From the NCBI GenBank assembly GCA_035873375.1, contig JAYWMQ010000043.1, positions 1 through 64,000 of the forward strand: a DNA stretch of 64,000 bases, given 5' to 3'. Origin of the DNA: Nitrospirota bacterium. Lineage in GTDB: Bacteria > Nitrospirota > Thermodesulfovibrionia > Thermodesulfovibrionales > JdFR-85. The notes beneath the pieces were generated by a model. It ran no database searches. It was given only the letters and a program-made list of their open reading frames with translations, and had not been told where the DNA came from. Below are positions 12,611 through 20,107 of this stretch, in pieces. The translations under genes and the position numbers were made by a program. Each line of letters opens with the position of its first letter. The first letter of the stretch is position 1.

Positions 12611-13735
12611 ATGAATAATGGATTGAATCACAAGAAAAAAGTCTTCAAAATCCTTATTGTTGATGGTGATGAAAAAGAGATAAGGCTCTTAAGGTCGTTT
12701 TGTGAAGGCCACGGGTATGAAACGATAGTAGCCAGGAACGGCCATGAGGCGGTGGAGCAGACGCTTCAGCACTTACCGGACCTTATACTTATGGATGAGA
12801 TGAAGCCTGAAATGAAAGGGGTTGAGATTGCGGAGAAACTCAAGTCCCATGAGCTTACCGCGCATATCCCCATTGTTATACTCACAGCCCCTGACCCATC
12901 ACCGGAATTCAGTGCAGGTATTGCCGGAGGGATTGACGATTTTCTTGTAAAGCCCGTCGATGCAGTTGAGTTCACCCTGAGGGTGAGGAACCTCTTAAAA
13001 CTCAAGGAGTGCCGTGATTTCTTAAGACAGCATAAGCAGATACTTGAGGAGCAGGTGGCAGCGAAGATAAAGGCTTTTGAGGGGGCATTTGAAAGACTTG
13101 AAAAGGTATACAGGAGGATCAGGACAGGGTATGCTGAGACAGTTTACCGGCTCACCCTTGCCTCTGAGTACAAGGATGAGGATTCCGGAGCGCATATAAA
13201 GAGGATCAGTTTGTATACAAAGGTGCTCGCATCTGCTCTGGGTATGAGCAAGGAGTATATAGAGACTATTTATTATGCCTCGCCAATGCATGATATCGGA
13301 AAGGTAGGTATTCCAGAGAGAGTTCTTCTTAAAAAGGGTGGTCTCACTTCTGAAGAATGGGAGATTGTGAAGACGCACACCACTATTGGTGCCAAAATTC
13401 TCAGGAATTCAAACTCACCCTACCTGAAGATGGCTGAGGAGATTGCACTTACCCATCACGAAAAGTGGGACGGTGCCGGTTATCCAAAAGGGCTAAAGGG
13501 TGAAAATATTCCGGTATCAGGGAGGATAATGAATATAGTTGACCAGTATGATGCATTGAGGAGCAGAAGGCCCTATAAACCGGTAATGGACCATGAGAGC
13601 GTTGTAAATATCCTTACTGACGGGGATGTCAAAAGCATGCCGAAACATTTTGATCCACAGGTTTTTGAGGCCTTCATGAGGTCCTCCGAAATGTTCAGGG
13701 AGATTTATGAGGCACGGAGGAATGATATTGGCTAA
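12611..13735 (+). CDS. Response regulator with HD-GYP phosphodiesterase domain (RpfG-like)
   Basis: A 374-residue two-domain regulator. The receiver domain (about 12-128) has the phosphoacceptor D62 in LILMDEMKP and the Lys in FLVKPVD. A coiled linker leads to an HD-GYP domain (about 165-365) with the metal-binding HDIGKVGIP and the canonical HHEKWDGAGYPKGLKGE, then DQYDALRSRRPYK. HD-GYP enzymes hydrolyse cyclic di-GMP, so phosphorylation would lower c-di-GMP. No kinase is next to it. GGGGGG before the ATG serves as ribosome binding site. Confidence 0.95.
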   Translation: MNNGLNHKKKVFKILIVDGDEKEIRLLRSFCEGHGYETIVARNGHEAVEQTLQHLPDLILMDEMKPEMKGVEIAEKLKSHELTAHIPIVILTAPDPSPEFSAGIAGGIDDFLVKPVDAVEFTLRVRNLLKLKECRDFLRQHKQILEEQVAAKIKAFEGAFERLEKVYRRIRTGYAETVYRLTLASEYKDEDSGAHIKRISLYTKVLASALGMSKEYIETIYYASPMHDIGKVGIPERVLLKKGGLTSEEWEIVKTHTTIGAKILRNSNSPYLKMAEEIALTHHEKWDGAGYPKGLKGENIPVSGRIMNIVDQYDALRSRRPYKPVMDHESVVNILTDGDVKSMPKHFDPQVFEAFMRSSEMFREIYEARRNDIG

Positions 13736-14854: not shown

Positions 14855-15610
14855 ATGAATCGGTGTTTTGCACACTGCTTATCCAGGGAAGATGCCATTT
14901 ATCTTCTTGAGCTGATCCACAAAAGTCTTTCCTGTAATACAAAAGAGGAACTGGCGGAACTAATGAAGAAGCTGAAACGTCTGGTTCCGTATGACTTTGC
15001 CATTTGCCTGCTTGGTAAAAAGGAGGTTGGCGGTATGGTAAAGATCTATAATCCTGTAAACATAAACTATCCTGTTGAATGGATTGAGCTTTACTTTGAG
15101 AGAAATTTCCAGGAGATTGACCCTGTTGCCAAAGAAAACTTTACTCATTTCAGGTTGCAGAGATGGTCTGATACGTATAAAGTACATGGCCCCCCTCCGG
15201 AATTCCTCTCACTTGCTGAAGATTTTGGACTTAATGAAGGCTACACACACGGAGCGAGGAATTTCAATGCAACCGAGGGGAGTCTGTTTTCGCTGTCCGG
15301 CAAATCCATAGAACATAATAATCGCACTGATACTATATTGAAACTCATTGTGCCACACTTTCATCAGGTCCTCGTACGTATTGTAGACCAGGATAAGAGA
15401 AAGAACAGGATTACGCTTTCTCCAAGAGAAAGAGAAGTGCTCAGCTGGATAAAAGAGGGGAAAAGCACGTGGGAAATATCAATAATTCTTGGTGTGAGTG
15501 AACGAACGGTAAAGTTTCATATCTGTAATGTTATGCGAAAACTCGATGCTGTGACCAGGACGCACGCTGTTGCCATTGCAATTGAGCAACGGTTGATTGA
15601 TATTGAGTAA
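14855..15610 (+). CDS. LuxR-type quorum-sensing transcription factor
   Basis: A 251-residue regulator with an N-terminal autoinducer-binding domain and a C-terminal GerE helix-turn-helix. The acyl-homoserine-lactone pocket residues are all present: W76, Y80, D89, P90 and W104, each exactly 19 positions after TraR W57, Y61, D70, P71 and W85. The DNA-binding part has the typical SPREREVLSWIKEGKSTWEIS and SERTVKFH. I chose ATG 14855, preceded by GGGGGGAGAG; an in-frame GTG or TTG further up lacks one. It converges on the luxI homologue and the two coding regions overlap by 80 bp at their 3' ends. A lux-box-like operator upstream of luxI fits activation by this protein. Confidence 0.95.
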   Translation: MNRCFAHCLSREDAIYLLELIHKSLSCNTKEELAELMKKLKRLVPYDFAICLLGKKEVGGMVKIYNPVNINYPVEWIELYFERNFQEIDPVAKENFTHFRLQRWSDTYKVHGPPPEFLSLAEDFGLNEGYTHGARNFNATEGSLFSLSGKSIEHNNRTDTILKLIVPHFHQVLVRIVDQDKRKNRITLSPREREVLSWIKEGKSTWEISIILGVSERTVKFHICNVMRKLDAVTRTHAVAIAIEQRLIDIE

Positions 15611-16199
15611 ACCATCTCATCATTTCCGGCCGTTTTACTGAACTTAATATTTCAAATTCTCGCCAGTCCATTATTACTGCCATGGCAGTAACCCCGTCAG
15701 GCATTGTTGTTGGGCTGCCTATCAATCTGTATGGAAACCCCTTTGTACAAAATAGCCTGAAGACCTTTTCTTCTGTAACTGCGTAAAGATATCGTATGCC
15801 ATTTTTAATACACCAGTGATAGATGCCCTTAAAGAGAAACATGGAAATGCCGTAGGTGCCGTAATTGCCTGTAACCTTGGCATTTCTGGCTTCAGGTGCT
15901 ACGCAGAGTCTCGAGATTTCCGCCCTGTTGCTTTCCTTCCTGATTTTATGTTCCGGCCCAACGAGCGATAGAAATTCCTTCTCCAGCATGAAAGGCTTTT
16001 CAGACATTATTAGTCTCAGATATGCCAATAGTCTGTTCTCTCTGTCAAGTACACCAAAGAAAACTGCATGGTTATCATATTCATCGATTTCCAGGAGTAC
16101 TTCACTTTCACTTACCCACCTTAACTCCTGACAAAATATCCTGTATCGTAAGTGATGTGCCTGGATTTTCTCTCTCTCATATTCCAGGTTTTTGACAAT
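15531..16199 (-). CDS. LuxI-type acyl-homoserine lactone synthase homologue, apparent ATT start
   Basis: Translated from ATT at 16199, this 222-residue protein has every LuxI active-site residue at matching spacing: R18, F22, W28, D39, D42, R62, F76, E94, R97 (LuxI R25, F29, W35, D46, D49, R70, F84, E101, R104). Key segments are LRYRIFCQELRW, EIDEYD, AYLRL and RAEISRLCV. It should make an acyl-homoserine lactone from SAM and an acyl donor; relatedness to exosortase-associated N-acyl amino acid synthases is possible. The frame is open from a TGA near 16296, but there is no ATG, GTG or TTG before codon 58 (TTG 16028), which lies beyond five catalytic residues. GAGGGGG at 16205-16211 points to ATT 16199 or 16202. 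The 3' end overlaps luxR by 80 bp. Confidence 0.88.
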   Translation of the reverse strand: MVKNLEYEREKIQAHHLRYRIFCQELRWVSESEVLLEIDEYDNHAVFFGVLDRENRLLAYLRLIMSEKPFMLEKEFLSLVGPEHKIRKESNRAEISRLCVAPEARNAKVTGNYGTYGISMFLFKGIYHWCIKNGIRYLYAVTEEKVFRLFCTKGFPYRLIGSPTTMPDGVTAMAVIMDWREFEILSSVKRPEMMRWFTQYQSTVAQLQWQQRASWSQHRVFA

Positions 16200-16204
16200 A
16201 ATAT

Positions 16205-16211
16205 CCCCCTC
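16205..16211 (-). promoter_or_regulatory. Shine-Dalgarno deciding the ATT start of luxI
   Basis: GAGGGGG on the minus strand ends 5 nt before ATT 16199 and 2 nt before ATT 16202. No other plausible ribosome binding site precedes the conserved N-terminus. Confidence 0.6.
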
Positions 16212-16304
16212 GCAGATTAAGATAAAAGAGTCAACAGGGTCCCTGGTGTTGTTCCAGCTGTTGCTTTTAACCGGTACTATTTCTCCGCCCCCTCACCTTT
16301 ATTG

Positions 16305-16310
16305 AGTATG
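16305..16310 (-). promoter_or_regulatory. Candidate -10 box for luxI
   Basis: CATACT on the minus strand. A start site about 7 nt further (near 16298) would put the centre of the lux-box-like operator at about -41, as in LuxR-activated promoters. Inference from spacing. Confidence 0.3.
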
Positions 16311-16328
16311 AATGGGGGAATAAAAGTC

Positions 16329-16348
16329 ACCTGTCCTTTTGGGCAGGT
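16329..16348. promoter_or_regulatory. lux-box-like operator between luxI and the SRPBCC gene
   Basis: A 20-bp dyad, ACCTGT-N8-GCAGGT, matches 11 of 12 outer positions of the Vibrio lux box (ACCTGT-N8-ACAGGT). It is the core of a longer inverted repeat 16320-16357: 17-bp arms with one mismatch and a TTTT centre. It lies between two divergent starts, where a terminator would make no sense. On the + strand TATATC at 16370-16375 would place its centre near -43 for the SRPBCC gene, and CATACT at 16310-16305 near -41 for luxI. Confidence 0.7.
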
Positions 16349-16369
16349 GACTTTTATGGTAAAACGTGG

Positions 16370-16375
16370 TATATC
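16370..16375 (+). promoter_or_regulatory. Candidate -10 box for the SRPBCC gene
   Basis: TATATC on the + strand gives a predicted start near 16382, with the operator centred about 43 bp upstream over the -35 region. There is no separate -35 match, consistent with an activator-dependent promoter. Confidence 0.35.
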
Positions 16376-16408
16376 TTAGGGTAGCGCTGTAAAGGGGGGG
16401 CAAAAAGC

Positions 16409-16876
16409 ATGGGGGAGGAATTTTCCATATCAAAATCTGTAGTTGTTAATGCAAGCACAGATTCGGTTTGGCGGGTTGTGGCAGATCCATTAAATGCGGC
16501 TATTTACCTTGACCCGGTAATCAGTGTTGAAAAAGTAAAAGATAATCTATATATGGTGAGAGAAGTTGCTGCCCCTGAAAAAGAGGGGAACTGGACAATG
16601 AATGAATATATGATGGAGGTAGTTGAGTATGAAGAGAAGAAGAGTCTCATGTTCCGCATTTACGTTGATTCTGTCAGACAGAAGGAGTTTGGTTTCAGGT
16701 TGGAGCCAGAGGGGAAAGAAAAGACAAATCTTACCTGTAGGATTAAGACGAACTTTGTGATGGTAAAGAACGGAGAAATCGGCAGGGAGATTGATTCAAT
16801 AATAGATAAAATTGCAAAGATGGCGATGAAAAAGCCTCCCTCTCGCAGGGTTTCAAGATATGAAGGGACCTTCTAA
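16409..16876 (+). CDS. SRPBCC-fold ligand-binding protein
   Basis: A 155-residue protein of the START/polyketide-cyclase-like superfamily. The N-terminus KSVVVNASTDSVWRVVADPLNAAIYLD is the usual first strand and helix pair, followed by a seven-strand sheet and a long C-terminal helix (about 120-145). Such folds bind hydrophobic ligands in a cavity; the ligand and any enzyme activity cannot be read from sequence. No signal peptide. GGGGGGG precedes the ATG. It is divergent from luxI across the lux-box-like operator and therefore a likely quorum-controlled target. Confidence 0.8.
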   Translation: MGEEFSISKSVVVNASTDSVWRVVADPLNAAIYLDPVISVEKVKDNLYMVREVAAPEKEGNWTMNEYMMEVVEYEEKKSLMFRIYVDSVRQKEFGFRLEPEGKEKTNLTCRIKTNFVMVKNGEIGREIDSIIDKIAKMAMKKPPSRRVSRYEGTF

Positions 16877-17167: not shown

Positions 17168-17244
<77 letters not shown>

Positions 17245-17338
17245 TGAATCCTTAAGAAAACATTTAAGTAATATTTAAAAACGTACCAGTCAGGGTTGTC
17301 TATTGTATATGTAAAGATTTGTTTCTTGAAGCAGGTTT

Positions 17339-17415
<77 letters not shown>

Positions 17416-17457: not shown

Positions 17458-18900
17458 CTATCCCTTTACCACCCCCAGTGGTCTCAACTTTGCCACCTTC
17501 CTGGAAATGCCAGCCCTGTGTACCACATCCACTACATTTGATACATCTTTATATGCCTCTGACATCTCCTCGGCAAGGGTTCGTTTCCCTGCACTCATGA
17601 CCACTATGCCTGCATCCTCCATCTCCCGCCATATGGCACGGCCCTTTGCCTGCTTTATCGCCTGATGTCTGGACATCACCCTGCCTGCCCCATGACAGGT
17701 GGATCCAAAAGTCTCTTCCATGGCCTTTTCAGTGCCTGTGAGGACAAAAGAGGCCCTGCCCATATCACCGGGAATCAATACAGGCTGGCCCAGCTCCCTG
17801 TAGACCTCCGGAAGCTCGGGATGCCCTGGGGGAAAGGCCCGTGTGGCCCCCTTTCTGTGGACGATGAGTCTCTTTTTAACGCCGTTGACGGTATGCTCCT
17901 CTATCTTTGCTATGTTATGGGCAACATCATAGACGAGTTTCAGCCCCAGCTCTTCCGGGGATGCCGACATTACCTTCATCAGTGCCTCTCTCGTCCAGTG
18001 CATTATGCACTGTCTGTTGGCCCATGCATAATTTGCTGCGGCCTTCATTGCTGCAAGATAATCCCGTGCCTCCGGACTTTTTACAGGCGCACAGGCAAGC
18101 TCCTTGTCCGGCAATGTTATGCCATACTTCCCGACAGCCCTCTCCATTACCTCGAGATAATCCGTGCAGACCTGATGTCCAAACCCCCTTGAACCGGTGT
18201 GGATCATTATTGTTATCTGCTCTGGAAATAGTCCGAGAATATTGGCAGCCTTTTCATCGTATATCTCTGCCACGTACTGTATTTCAAGGAAGTGATTTCC
18301 GGACCCCAGGGTCCCCTGCTGTGCCCTGCCGCGTTCGAATGCCCTGTCACTTATCAGAGACGGGTCTGCGCCCTCCATGGCCCCTCCGGATTCAGTCCTT
18401 TCAAGGTCTTCTTCCCTGCCATAGCCCCGTTCAACAGCCCAGCGGGCCCCCTTCAGGAGGAGCGATTTTTGATCCTCCTTTGTCAGCCTGAGTTTGCCCT
18501 TTGAGCCGACTCCTGAAGGGACTTCATTGTAGAGCTTCACGACAAGGTCCTTCATTCCGGGGAGGACCTCCTCGCGTGTCAGGTTGCTCCTCAGCAGACG
18601 GACCCCGCAGTTTATGTCATAACCTACCCCTCCAGGTGATATAATCCCGTTCTCAAGGTCAAAGGCCGCAACCCCGCCGATTGCAAAGCCGTATCCTGTG
18701 TGTATGTCCGGCATTGCAAGGGATTTCTTTACTATGCCCGGAAGCGTGGCCACATTGGCGACCTGTTTTATTGCCCCTTCTTCAAGGAATGCCTCAAGCT
18801 CCTTATCAACATAGATTATGCCACCCACGCGCATCCCGTCAGTATATCCTTTGGGGACCTCAAGACGGGTTTCGTCTATTCTTTTCAGTCCTTCTGCCAT
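17458..18900 (-). CDS. rtcB: RNA-splicing ligase RtcB
   Basis: RtcB joins 2',3'-cyclic phosphate or 3'-phosphate RNA ends to 5'-OH ends with GTP and Mn2+, for RNA repair. The 480-residue protein has all hallmarks: MPDIHTGYGFAIGGVAAF, the metal-binding DINCGVR (about 95), GSGNHFLEIQ, HTGSRGFGHQV (about 235) and the guanylylated histidine in TCHGAGRVMSR near residue 405. GGAG lies 7 nt before the ATG. It is the second gene after archease on the same strand, with 204 bp between them containing a palindromic element, and the two tRNA genes follow downstream. Confidence 0.97.
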   Translation of the reverse strand: MAEGLKRIDETRLEVPKGYTDGMRVGGIIYVDKELEAFLEEGAIKQVANVATLPGIVKKSLAMPDIHTGYGFAIGGVAAFDLENGIISPGGVGYDINCGVRLLRSNLTREEVLPGMKDLVVKLYNEVPSGVGSKGKLRLTKEDQKSLLLKGARWAVERGYGREEDLERTESGGAMEGADPSLISDRAFERGRAQQGTLGSGNHFLEIQYVAEIYDEKAANILGLFPEQITIMIHTGSRGFGHQVCTDYLEVMERAVGKYGITLPDKELACAPVKSPEARDYLAAMKAAANYAWANRQCIMHWTREALMKVMSASPEELGLKLVYDVAHNIAKIEEHTVNGVKKRLIVHRKGATRAFPPGHPELPEVYRELGQPVLIPGDMGRASFVLTGTEKAMEETFGSTCHGAGRVMSRHQAIKQAKGRAIWREMEDAGIVVMSAGKRTLAEEMSEAYKDVSNVVDVVHRAGISRKVAKLRPLGVVKG

Positions 18901-18977
18901 ATAATCACTCCTGTTTATGTAAGGATGTTACTGCAGTCATTGGTCTTTCCGGCAATAAAGGGATTCAATCAAGTGAA

Positions 18978-19085
18978 GGGAGCGGTATGATAGAGTCTGA
19001 ACGGTTTTTTTCGCTGAAAGCGAAAACCTCGGAGACAGGCAGTATGCCTGTCGAGAATGAGTGAAGACTCTATCATACCGCTCCC
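18978..19085 (+). repeat. Palindromic structured element, copy A
   Basis: A 108-bp element bounded by 21-bp perfect inverted repeats (18978-18998 and 19065-19085, starting GGGAGCGG). Inside are two hairpins: TTTTCGC/GCGAAAA (19008-19026) and GACAGGCA/TGCCTGTC (19034-19052). The segments between are GAACGGTTTT, ACCTCGGAGA and TCGAGAATGAGTGAAGA. The same segments, with different but still pairing stems, recur at 36019-36150. It lies in the archease-rtcB gap, oriented against that operon. Confidence 0.85.
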
Positions 19086-19104
19086 GGCAACTATTGTAAT
19101 AATT

Positions 19105-19524
19105 CTATATGTCAAGAACCACCTCGGCAGTCCAGATACCATCTTTTTCTTCAATCCTGAGGTTGTGGTATGTGGCAGCTTTTACAAGAAGCCCCCTTTC
19201 GTGTCTCTCAGGGTCAAATTCCTCACCTTTTATTCCTGCCTCAACCCTGTTTTCGTTGATGTTTTTAATCCCGACTTCCTTGCCAATAAAACCGTAGGTA
19301 TCAAACCGGAAGATTAATTCATTGAGCCATCCGACAAGGAGACCATCAAGTGATTCCCTGCTGACCTTTATATCAACCGACTCTGCGGGCTCAACGCCTG
19401 AGAGGTCAGTGATAAGACTGTAAAGACCGAGCGCGCTGTTGATAAAGAGTTCTTCGAGACTCCGGCCATAGACCCTGAGGCCCACATCTCCGGATATATC
19501 AAGAATTTCAAACCCTCTGTTCAT
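19105..19524 (-). CDS. Archease, RtcB activator
   Basis: Archease speeds RtcB guanylylation and broadens its nucleotide use. From ATG 19524 the protein has 139 residues, the usual length, and starts MNRGFEILDISGDVGLRVYG, which matches the family N-terminus (an acidic residue in DISGDVG binds metal). Other signs are ESLDGLLVGWLNELIF and the C-terminal VKAATYHNLRIEE. A longer frame to ATG 19587 exists but adds residues not typical of the family. It is upstream of rtcB on the same strand, the expected pairing. Confidence 0.9.
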   Translation of the reverse strand: MNRGFEILDISGDVGLRVYGRSLEELFINSALGLYSLITDLSGVEPAESVDIKVSRESLDGLLVGWLNELIFRFDTYGFIGKEVGIKNINENRVEAGIKGEEFDPERHERGLLVKAATYHNLRIEEKDGIWTAEVVLDI

Positions 19525-19639
19525 GGAACCCTGTTTAACTTTTTTAGAATCTACCCACATATTAACACTGACCTTTAAAGATGTCAATCGGGAATCTCTT
19601 CCTGCTGCAAACAGAATCCTTCACATGCTATTATATTTC

Positions 19640-20107
19640 ATGCCCTGTTTTGTTGTACACGAACATCACTCAAGGCGCCTTCATTATGACTTCAGACTTG
19701 AGATGGCCGGAGTGCTGAAGTCCTGGGCAGTCCCAAAGGGGCCTTCAATGTGTCCAAAGGACAAGAGACTCGCAATAATGGTTGATGACCATCCGCTTGA
19801 GTACGGAACATTTGAGGGTATAATCCCTGAAGGTCATTATGGCGCAGGGCCTGTACTCATATGGGATTCGGGTGAGTATGAGCTTGTTGGTGGGAGTCTG
19901 GAGGAGGGGCGGCTGGAGTTTATCCTTAAGGGGAGAAAACTGAGAGGAAACTTTGTCCTGACAAGACTGAAGGGGCGGGAGAATCAGTGGCTCCTGATAA
20001 AGAAAAAGGACGAATATGCCCTCTCCGTATATGTTGTGAAGCCTGAACTTACAAAGGAGCGGCTGGAGAGATTGAAAGAGAAGATACCACCGTGTGAGAC
20101 GGAGTGA
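19640..20107 (+). CDS. Stand-alone LigD-type 3'-phosphoesterase domain protein
   Basis: The 155-residue product, started at ATG 19640, begins MPCFVVHEHHSRRLHYDFRL, the diagnostic start of the PE domain of DNA ligase D, with its catalytic His, Asp and Arg. VDDHPLEYGTFEGIIPEGHYGAG supplies the second active-site His and Tyr. In LigD this domain removes 3'-phosphates and terminal ribonucleotides at breaks. No ligase or polymerase domain is attached and no Ku gene is visible. The frame extends upstream to 19523 but those residues are not conserved in type. It is divergent from archease and convergent with ksgA. Confidence 0.9.
   Translation: MPCFVVHEHHSRRLHYDFRLEMAGVLKSWAVPKGPSMCPKDKRLAIMVDDHPLEYGTFEGIIPEGHYGAGPVLIWDSGEYELVGGSLEEGRLEFILKGRKLRGNFVLTRLKGRENQWLLIKKKDEYALSVYVVKPELTKERLERLKEKIPPCETE

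Follow-up and report, generated by a model that had tools for sequence, protein, structure and literature searches.

A 64,000-nucleotide stretch of a Nitrospirota contig (the window) very likely encodes a LuxI/LuxR circuit. One lux box would drive both luxI and, probably, a divergent SRPBCC gene, and luxI is likely translated from an AUA start. In the proposed circuit, LuxI would make an AHL, and AHL-bound LuxR would occupy the single lux box at 16329-16348. From this box LuxR would activate luxI leftward, giving positive feedback, and SRPBCC rightward. The AUA codon (AUC in sister species), placed behind a good Shine-Dalgarno (SD) sequence, probably throttles luxI translation and holds synthase output low. 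We read the domains, key residues, operator conservation, gene layout and protein-level constraint upstream of the ordinary start codons directly from the sequence; AHL production, LuxR binding, activation as opposed to repression and the exact luxI start codon are what we infer from them. Lux-box-linked LuxI/LuxR pairs are already known in Nitrospirota, and what seems unusual here is a predicted luxI start at the rare codons AUA/AUC in four related species.

In a profile search, LuxR matched PF03472 (76.3 bits) and PF00196 (71.4 bits), and LuxI matched PF00765 well over the cut-off (68.7 bits against 24) as the sole PF00765 match in the genome. The best solved relative of LuxR is CviR (3qp6; E = 1.2e-36). 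The initial annotation had placed five LuxR pocket residues at a constant offset of 19 from those of TraR, and all five are exact: W76, Y80, D89, P90 and W104 correspond to TraR W57, Y61, D70, P71 and W85. By sequence, then, LuxR has both the Pfam domains and the TraR pocket residues that mark a LuxR-type AHL receptor. AHL synthases are recognized by R24, F28, W34, D45, D48, an R69-type arginine and E-x-x-R. Alignment with TraI recovered all of these in LuxI, which has nine canonical residues, the number given previously (R45, F49, W55, D66, D69, R89, F97, E121 and R124, counting the ATA codon as 1). The NCBIfam TraI/AHL-synthase and SdiA/TraR models match LuxI and LuxR below their cut-offs; N. 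moscoviensis LuxI also falls under the equivalog cut-offs, and these models are narrow. The domains and family residues thus uphold, at the level of sequence, the earlier call of an AHL-type luxI/luxR pair. The further description of the module as complete calls for one qualification: the synthase lacks an ordinary start codon.

Table 1. Features of the luxR-luxI-SRPBCC locus, in window coordinates.
Feature	Position	Strand	Remarks
luxR	14855..15610	+	AHL-binding domain and LuxR-type HTH regulator, 251 aa, CviR-like
luxI	15531..16280	-	249-codon AHL synthase; predicted AUA start 16280-16278, TAA stop 15533-15531
luxI/luxR tail-to-tail overlap	15531..15610		80 bp, convergent 3' ends
Predicted non-canonical luxI start, ATA	16278..16280	-	
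Conserved SD block TGAGGGGGCGGAGAA	16281..16295	-	Precedes luxI; hardly varies among five genus members
Candidate luxI -10-like CATACT	16305..16310	-	Followed by conserved CAATAAA; fixed distance from box in five genus members
38-bp inverted repeat	16320..16357		17-nt arms, 4-nt centre, arms 94% complementary; holds lux box
Predicted lux-box-like operator ACCTGTCCTTTTGGGCAGGT	16329..16348		20 bp, common to luxI and SRPBCC
Candidate SRPBCC -10-like TATATC	16370..16375	+	In ACGTGGTAYATCT, conserved in window, L007 and L013
SRPBCC/Polyketide_cyc2 gene	16409..16876	+	155 aa, divergent from luxI; candidate target

The convergent overlap of luxI and luxR recurs at four other loci (L007, L008, L009 and L022). 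Upstream of luxI in the window lie tRNA-Asp and tRNA-Met (17168-17415, minus strand). A cluster at 17458-20107 contains a 480-aa minus-strand protein that we take to resemble RtcB RNA ligase, then an archease (PF01951) and a protein with a LigD-type 3'-phosphoesterase domain (PF13298). Two genes from luxR is a fusion of a response regulator with an HD-GYP-like HD domain (12611-13735). A similar protein occurs near luxI in L007, L008 and L009, which hints at a link to c-di-GMP.

The dyad ACCTGT-N8-GCAGGT, noted in the initial annotation within a 38-bp inverted repeat between luxI and the divergent SRPBCC gene, was found as described, and an exact ACCTGT-N8-RCAGGT occurs only there in the whole window. 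In sequence and conservation it corresponds to a lux box, a 20-bp dyad ACCTG-N10-CAGGT near -40, with its promoter positions being predicted ones. We scanned six genomes of the genus for CACCTGT-N8-ACAGGTG, allowing up to two mismatches in the window's genome. A perfect copy occurs once each in G001, G002, G004 and G005, always at luxI, and the copy in the window, also at luxI, has one mismatch. In G003, which is 84% complete, both luxI and a good box are missing. The window's genome has ten other sites, each with two mismatches. Nine of them fall within ORFs, and the tenth, C32:10630, overlaps the start predicted for a transporter-like ORF. Among the near-consensus sites of this genome, only the luxI box stands clearly at promoters, and because of the position of the other dyads we do not claim a wider regulon among near-consensus boxes.

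In five genus members the region upstream of luxI is assembled, and each of them has the box there, as do two further genera of the order (L009 and L010; LuxI ~58% identical). Both of these retain CACCTGT-N8-ACAGGTG, with inner bases that have changed yet are mostly complementary. By eye, less exact boxes also precede luxI in G029, G117, G042 and G093, and no clear dyad was found upstream of luxI in the Solidesulfovibrio loci L011 and L012. Across the genus, neither CTCAATA nor the SD block shifts in its distance from the box, as would be expected of an operator-promoter unit more than of a drifting terminator. If the candidate -10-like hexamers hold, the dyad is centred at about -41 for luxI and -43 for SRPBCC. 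Conservation of the hexamers between species favours this placement, which had been proposed earlier, and three species have kept GACTTTTATGRTAAAACGTGGTAYATCT on the SRPBCC side. However, a consensus promoter scan called neither CATACT nor TATATC, both of which are poor matches, so these candidates rest on inspection and interspecies conservation.

The SRPBCC protein matches PF10604 (35.7 bits; cut-off 27.4). Sequence comparison found no solved structural relative, and a structure model built from three sequences had a pLDDT of 36 and was set aside. SRPBCC homologues were found in 3 of 149 genomes of the order, each a member of this genus (this genome, G002 and G004), always beside the box, whereas G001 and G005 keep the box and luxI without SRPBCC. 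Since tRNA-Asp directly precedes the box in L008 and L057, the SRPBCC gene was gained or lost between the window and these loci. The gene is probably a direct quorum target in the window, as first suggested: its divergent position at the box supports this, although it is an accessory gene. In other lineages, the ORFs as read by eye give other divergent neighbours: L009 has a CheR-type methyltransferase, L022 an XRE-type regulator, and L016 and L018 a sensor kinase. The bidirectional box is stable, while its divergent partner can be SRPBCC, a CheR-type methyltransferase, a sensor kinase or GGDEF/EAL.

The initial annotation was silent on the luxI start, as it was on the overlap of luxI with luxR. 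Past a TGA adjoining the SD block, the luxI frame stays open, but it has no ATG, GTG or TTG before codon 85 (TTG), and a start there would lose R45, F49, W55, D66 and D69. The window and L007 have ATA as codon 1, L008 and L057 have ATC, and L009 and L010 have ATG. No gaps are needed to align the N-termini of the window, L007 and L009/L010; for the window, L007 and L009 this alignment covers 32 codons up to VKNL. L008 and L057 have one extra in-frame codon. Between the window and L008, the 31-codon N-terminal extension has a dS of 1.47 and a dN of 0.28 (Fisher P = 0.0009), and purifying selection on codons 33-85 is strong. These data indicate that luxI translation begins upstream of the ordinary starts. 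The predicted SD/anti-SD duplex (about -12 kcal/mol) ends ~5 nt before the ATA, as it does before the L009 ATG. This SD placement and the gap-free match to the L009/L010 ATG make AUA the likely initiation codon of luxI in the window. In L008 and L057, translation may instead begin at inner ordinary starts (GTG at codon 33 and TTG at codon 32, respectively); the protein would then lack the extension and probably also the fold's first strand. Sequencing error is an unlikely cause of the missing start because four separate genomes show it with two different codons. A literature search for non-AUG luxI starts found none.

AUA and AUC are very inefficient start codons in standard systems. ATA could become ATG by a single transition, yet it has been kept through speciation. 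We lean slightly toward the view that the conserved AUA/AUC acts as a brake on AHL signalling by holding luxI translation low, possibly tied to IF3 levels.

Other explanations of the luxI start bear on these same features. A GTG or ATG stands near 16296 on the minus strand, within the conserved block, in all five genus members, and luxI might be reached from this short upstream frame by a +1 frameshift or by reinitiation. We regard this as unlikely, as it requires an additional event, the end point of the short frame varies among species, and a plain ATG occupies the aligned codon in L009 and L010. That the genus has a decaying luxI which lost its start codon, and not a functional gene with a rare one, is extremely unlikely. 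Apart from the missing ATG/GTG/TTG, decay would account for the G002 luxI, which has no N-terminal half, but an open frame is kept in four species (split over two contigs in G001), purifying selection is strong, the LuxI residues are intact and the SD block is conserved. The G002 locus itself (L013 5937-6405; L071 6716-7794) has a frame running from the SD block into mid-protein; the C-terminus of the adjacent SRPBCC is also disrupted, and luxR and the box are retained. Either decay or misassembly would produce this arrangement.

The operator and the enzyme assignment can also be read differently. Instead of being a LuxR operator, the dyad could act chiefly at the RNA level, as a hairpin. Such a terminator or attenuator would shield luxI from transcription arriving from upstream, for example from tRNA-Asp. 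The hairpin is stable on both strands (-22 and -28 kcal/mol), seven T follow the stem in L009 and L010 (the only T tracts), and tRNA-Asp lies upstream in the luxI orientation in L008 and L057. Against this, the outer CACCTGT/ACAGGTG is nearly invariant while LuxI synonymous sites are saturated, within the genus neither the 20-bp lux spacing nor the distance to CAATAAA varies, no gene ends upstream of the dyad in the window, a terminator scan called none, and LuxR binds the counterpart box in Nitrospira (PMC8553950), leaving a primarily terminating role distinctly improbable. We rejected, as very improbable, the reading of LuxI as a non-AHL, PEP-CTERM/exosortase-associated N-acyltransferase with LuxR as an EpsA-like regulator. 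TIGR03694 scores slightly above the TraI models for LuxI, but its 67.6 bits are well under the curated cut-off of 111.95, and the match does not discriminate because LuxI of N. moscoviensis, a species reported to make C8-HSL (PMC8553950), also matches (52 bits). Likewise, EpsA TIGR03020 is the best NCBIfam match of LuxR at 101.5 bits, well under its curated cut-off of 170. The genome does encode one exosortase, but on a different contig from luxI, and the AHL pocket and synthase residues are intact, with luxR adjacent.

In a LuxI tree, the window LuxI groups with Nitrospirota sequences (support 92/91 for the whole group); deeper placement is unsure because TraI and GNAT-like proteins are on long branches. 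Nested inside this clade are sequences from Solidesulfovibrio magneticus (Thermodesulfobacteriota; L011 and L012) that are ~52% identical to the window LuxI, which suggests transfer between phyla. Other Nitrospirota families have a divergent PF00765/GNAT-like protein (L023, L024 and L026, around 1501-1968) that is not close to the window LuxI; its gene directly follows another reading frame and has no upstream lux box.

Taken as an AHL circuit, the locus carries operator-linked AHL signalling in Nitrospirota beyond Nitrospira, into an uncultured relative, with one bidirectional lux box kept while the divergent partner differs by lineage. Should the start codon prove real, pipelines restricted to ATG/GTG/TTG probably annotate the luxI of this genus in truncated form, and the gene lends itself to a simple test of start-codon control over signal output.

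Start codons disfavoured by IF3 have natural uses elsewhere: E. coli genes of the infC/pcnB type start at AUU. The predicted luxI start differs in being AUA/AUC and in lying on a quorum-signal synthase. For LuxR, the alignment with CviR of Chromobacterium spans nearly the full length, although the hosts belong to different phyla and the likeness is one of sequence.

The initial annotation had considered a canonical lux box unexpected in Nitrospirota. This is contradicted by NspI/NspR1 of Nitrospira, where a lux box between nspI and a divergent GGDEF/EAL gene was tested by reporter and gel shift (PMC8553950); AHLs have also been identified in N. japonica (PMC5767232), and LuxI homologues occur in about one third of surveyed Nitrospirales genomes (PMC12342949). 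C8-HSL-dependent reporter induction at the Nitrospira box was 14-fold and 197-fold, and the other 59 of 61 predicted Nitrospira promoters were inactive in that assay (PMC8553950). In NspI/NspR1, the shared box between nspI and the divergent GGDEF/EAL gene is ACCTGGCGGTTCCGCCAGGT. Upstream of luxI, the Nitrospira box reads GTCACCTG-N10-CAGGTGAC, N. moscoviensis has ACCTGGCGGATCAGCCAGGT, and the Nitrospira loci L016-L018 have GTCACCTGG-N8-CCAGGTGAC.

Like the window, the Nitrospira system thus has one ACCTG-N10-CAGGT box shared by luxI and a divergent gene, and the N. moscoviensis and UBA2082 loci also have convergent luxI/luxR. Lux boxes are few genome-wide in both cases, counted as active boxes in Nitrospira and as the near-consensus, promoter-placed box in the window's genome. 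The two differ in the partner gene, GGDEF/EAL in Nitrospira and SRPBCC in the window, and in the start of luxI, which is ATG in related Nitrospira genes and probably ATA here; the N. moscoviensis LuxI homologue is ~32% identical to that of the window. Closer parallels come from L009, L010 and L022 of other Nitrospirota, whose LuxI proteins belong to the same clade and whose luxI genes also have an upstream box (degenerate in L022). Where luxR was read (L009 and L022), it is convergent and overlapping with luxI as in the window, and the divergent partners there, assigned by eye as CheR-type and XRE-type, differ from SRPBCC. Unlike the window luxI, all three begin with an ordinary ATG.
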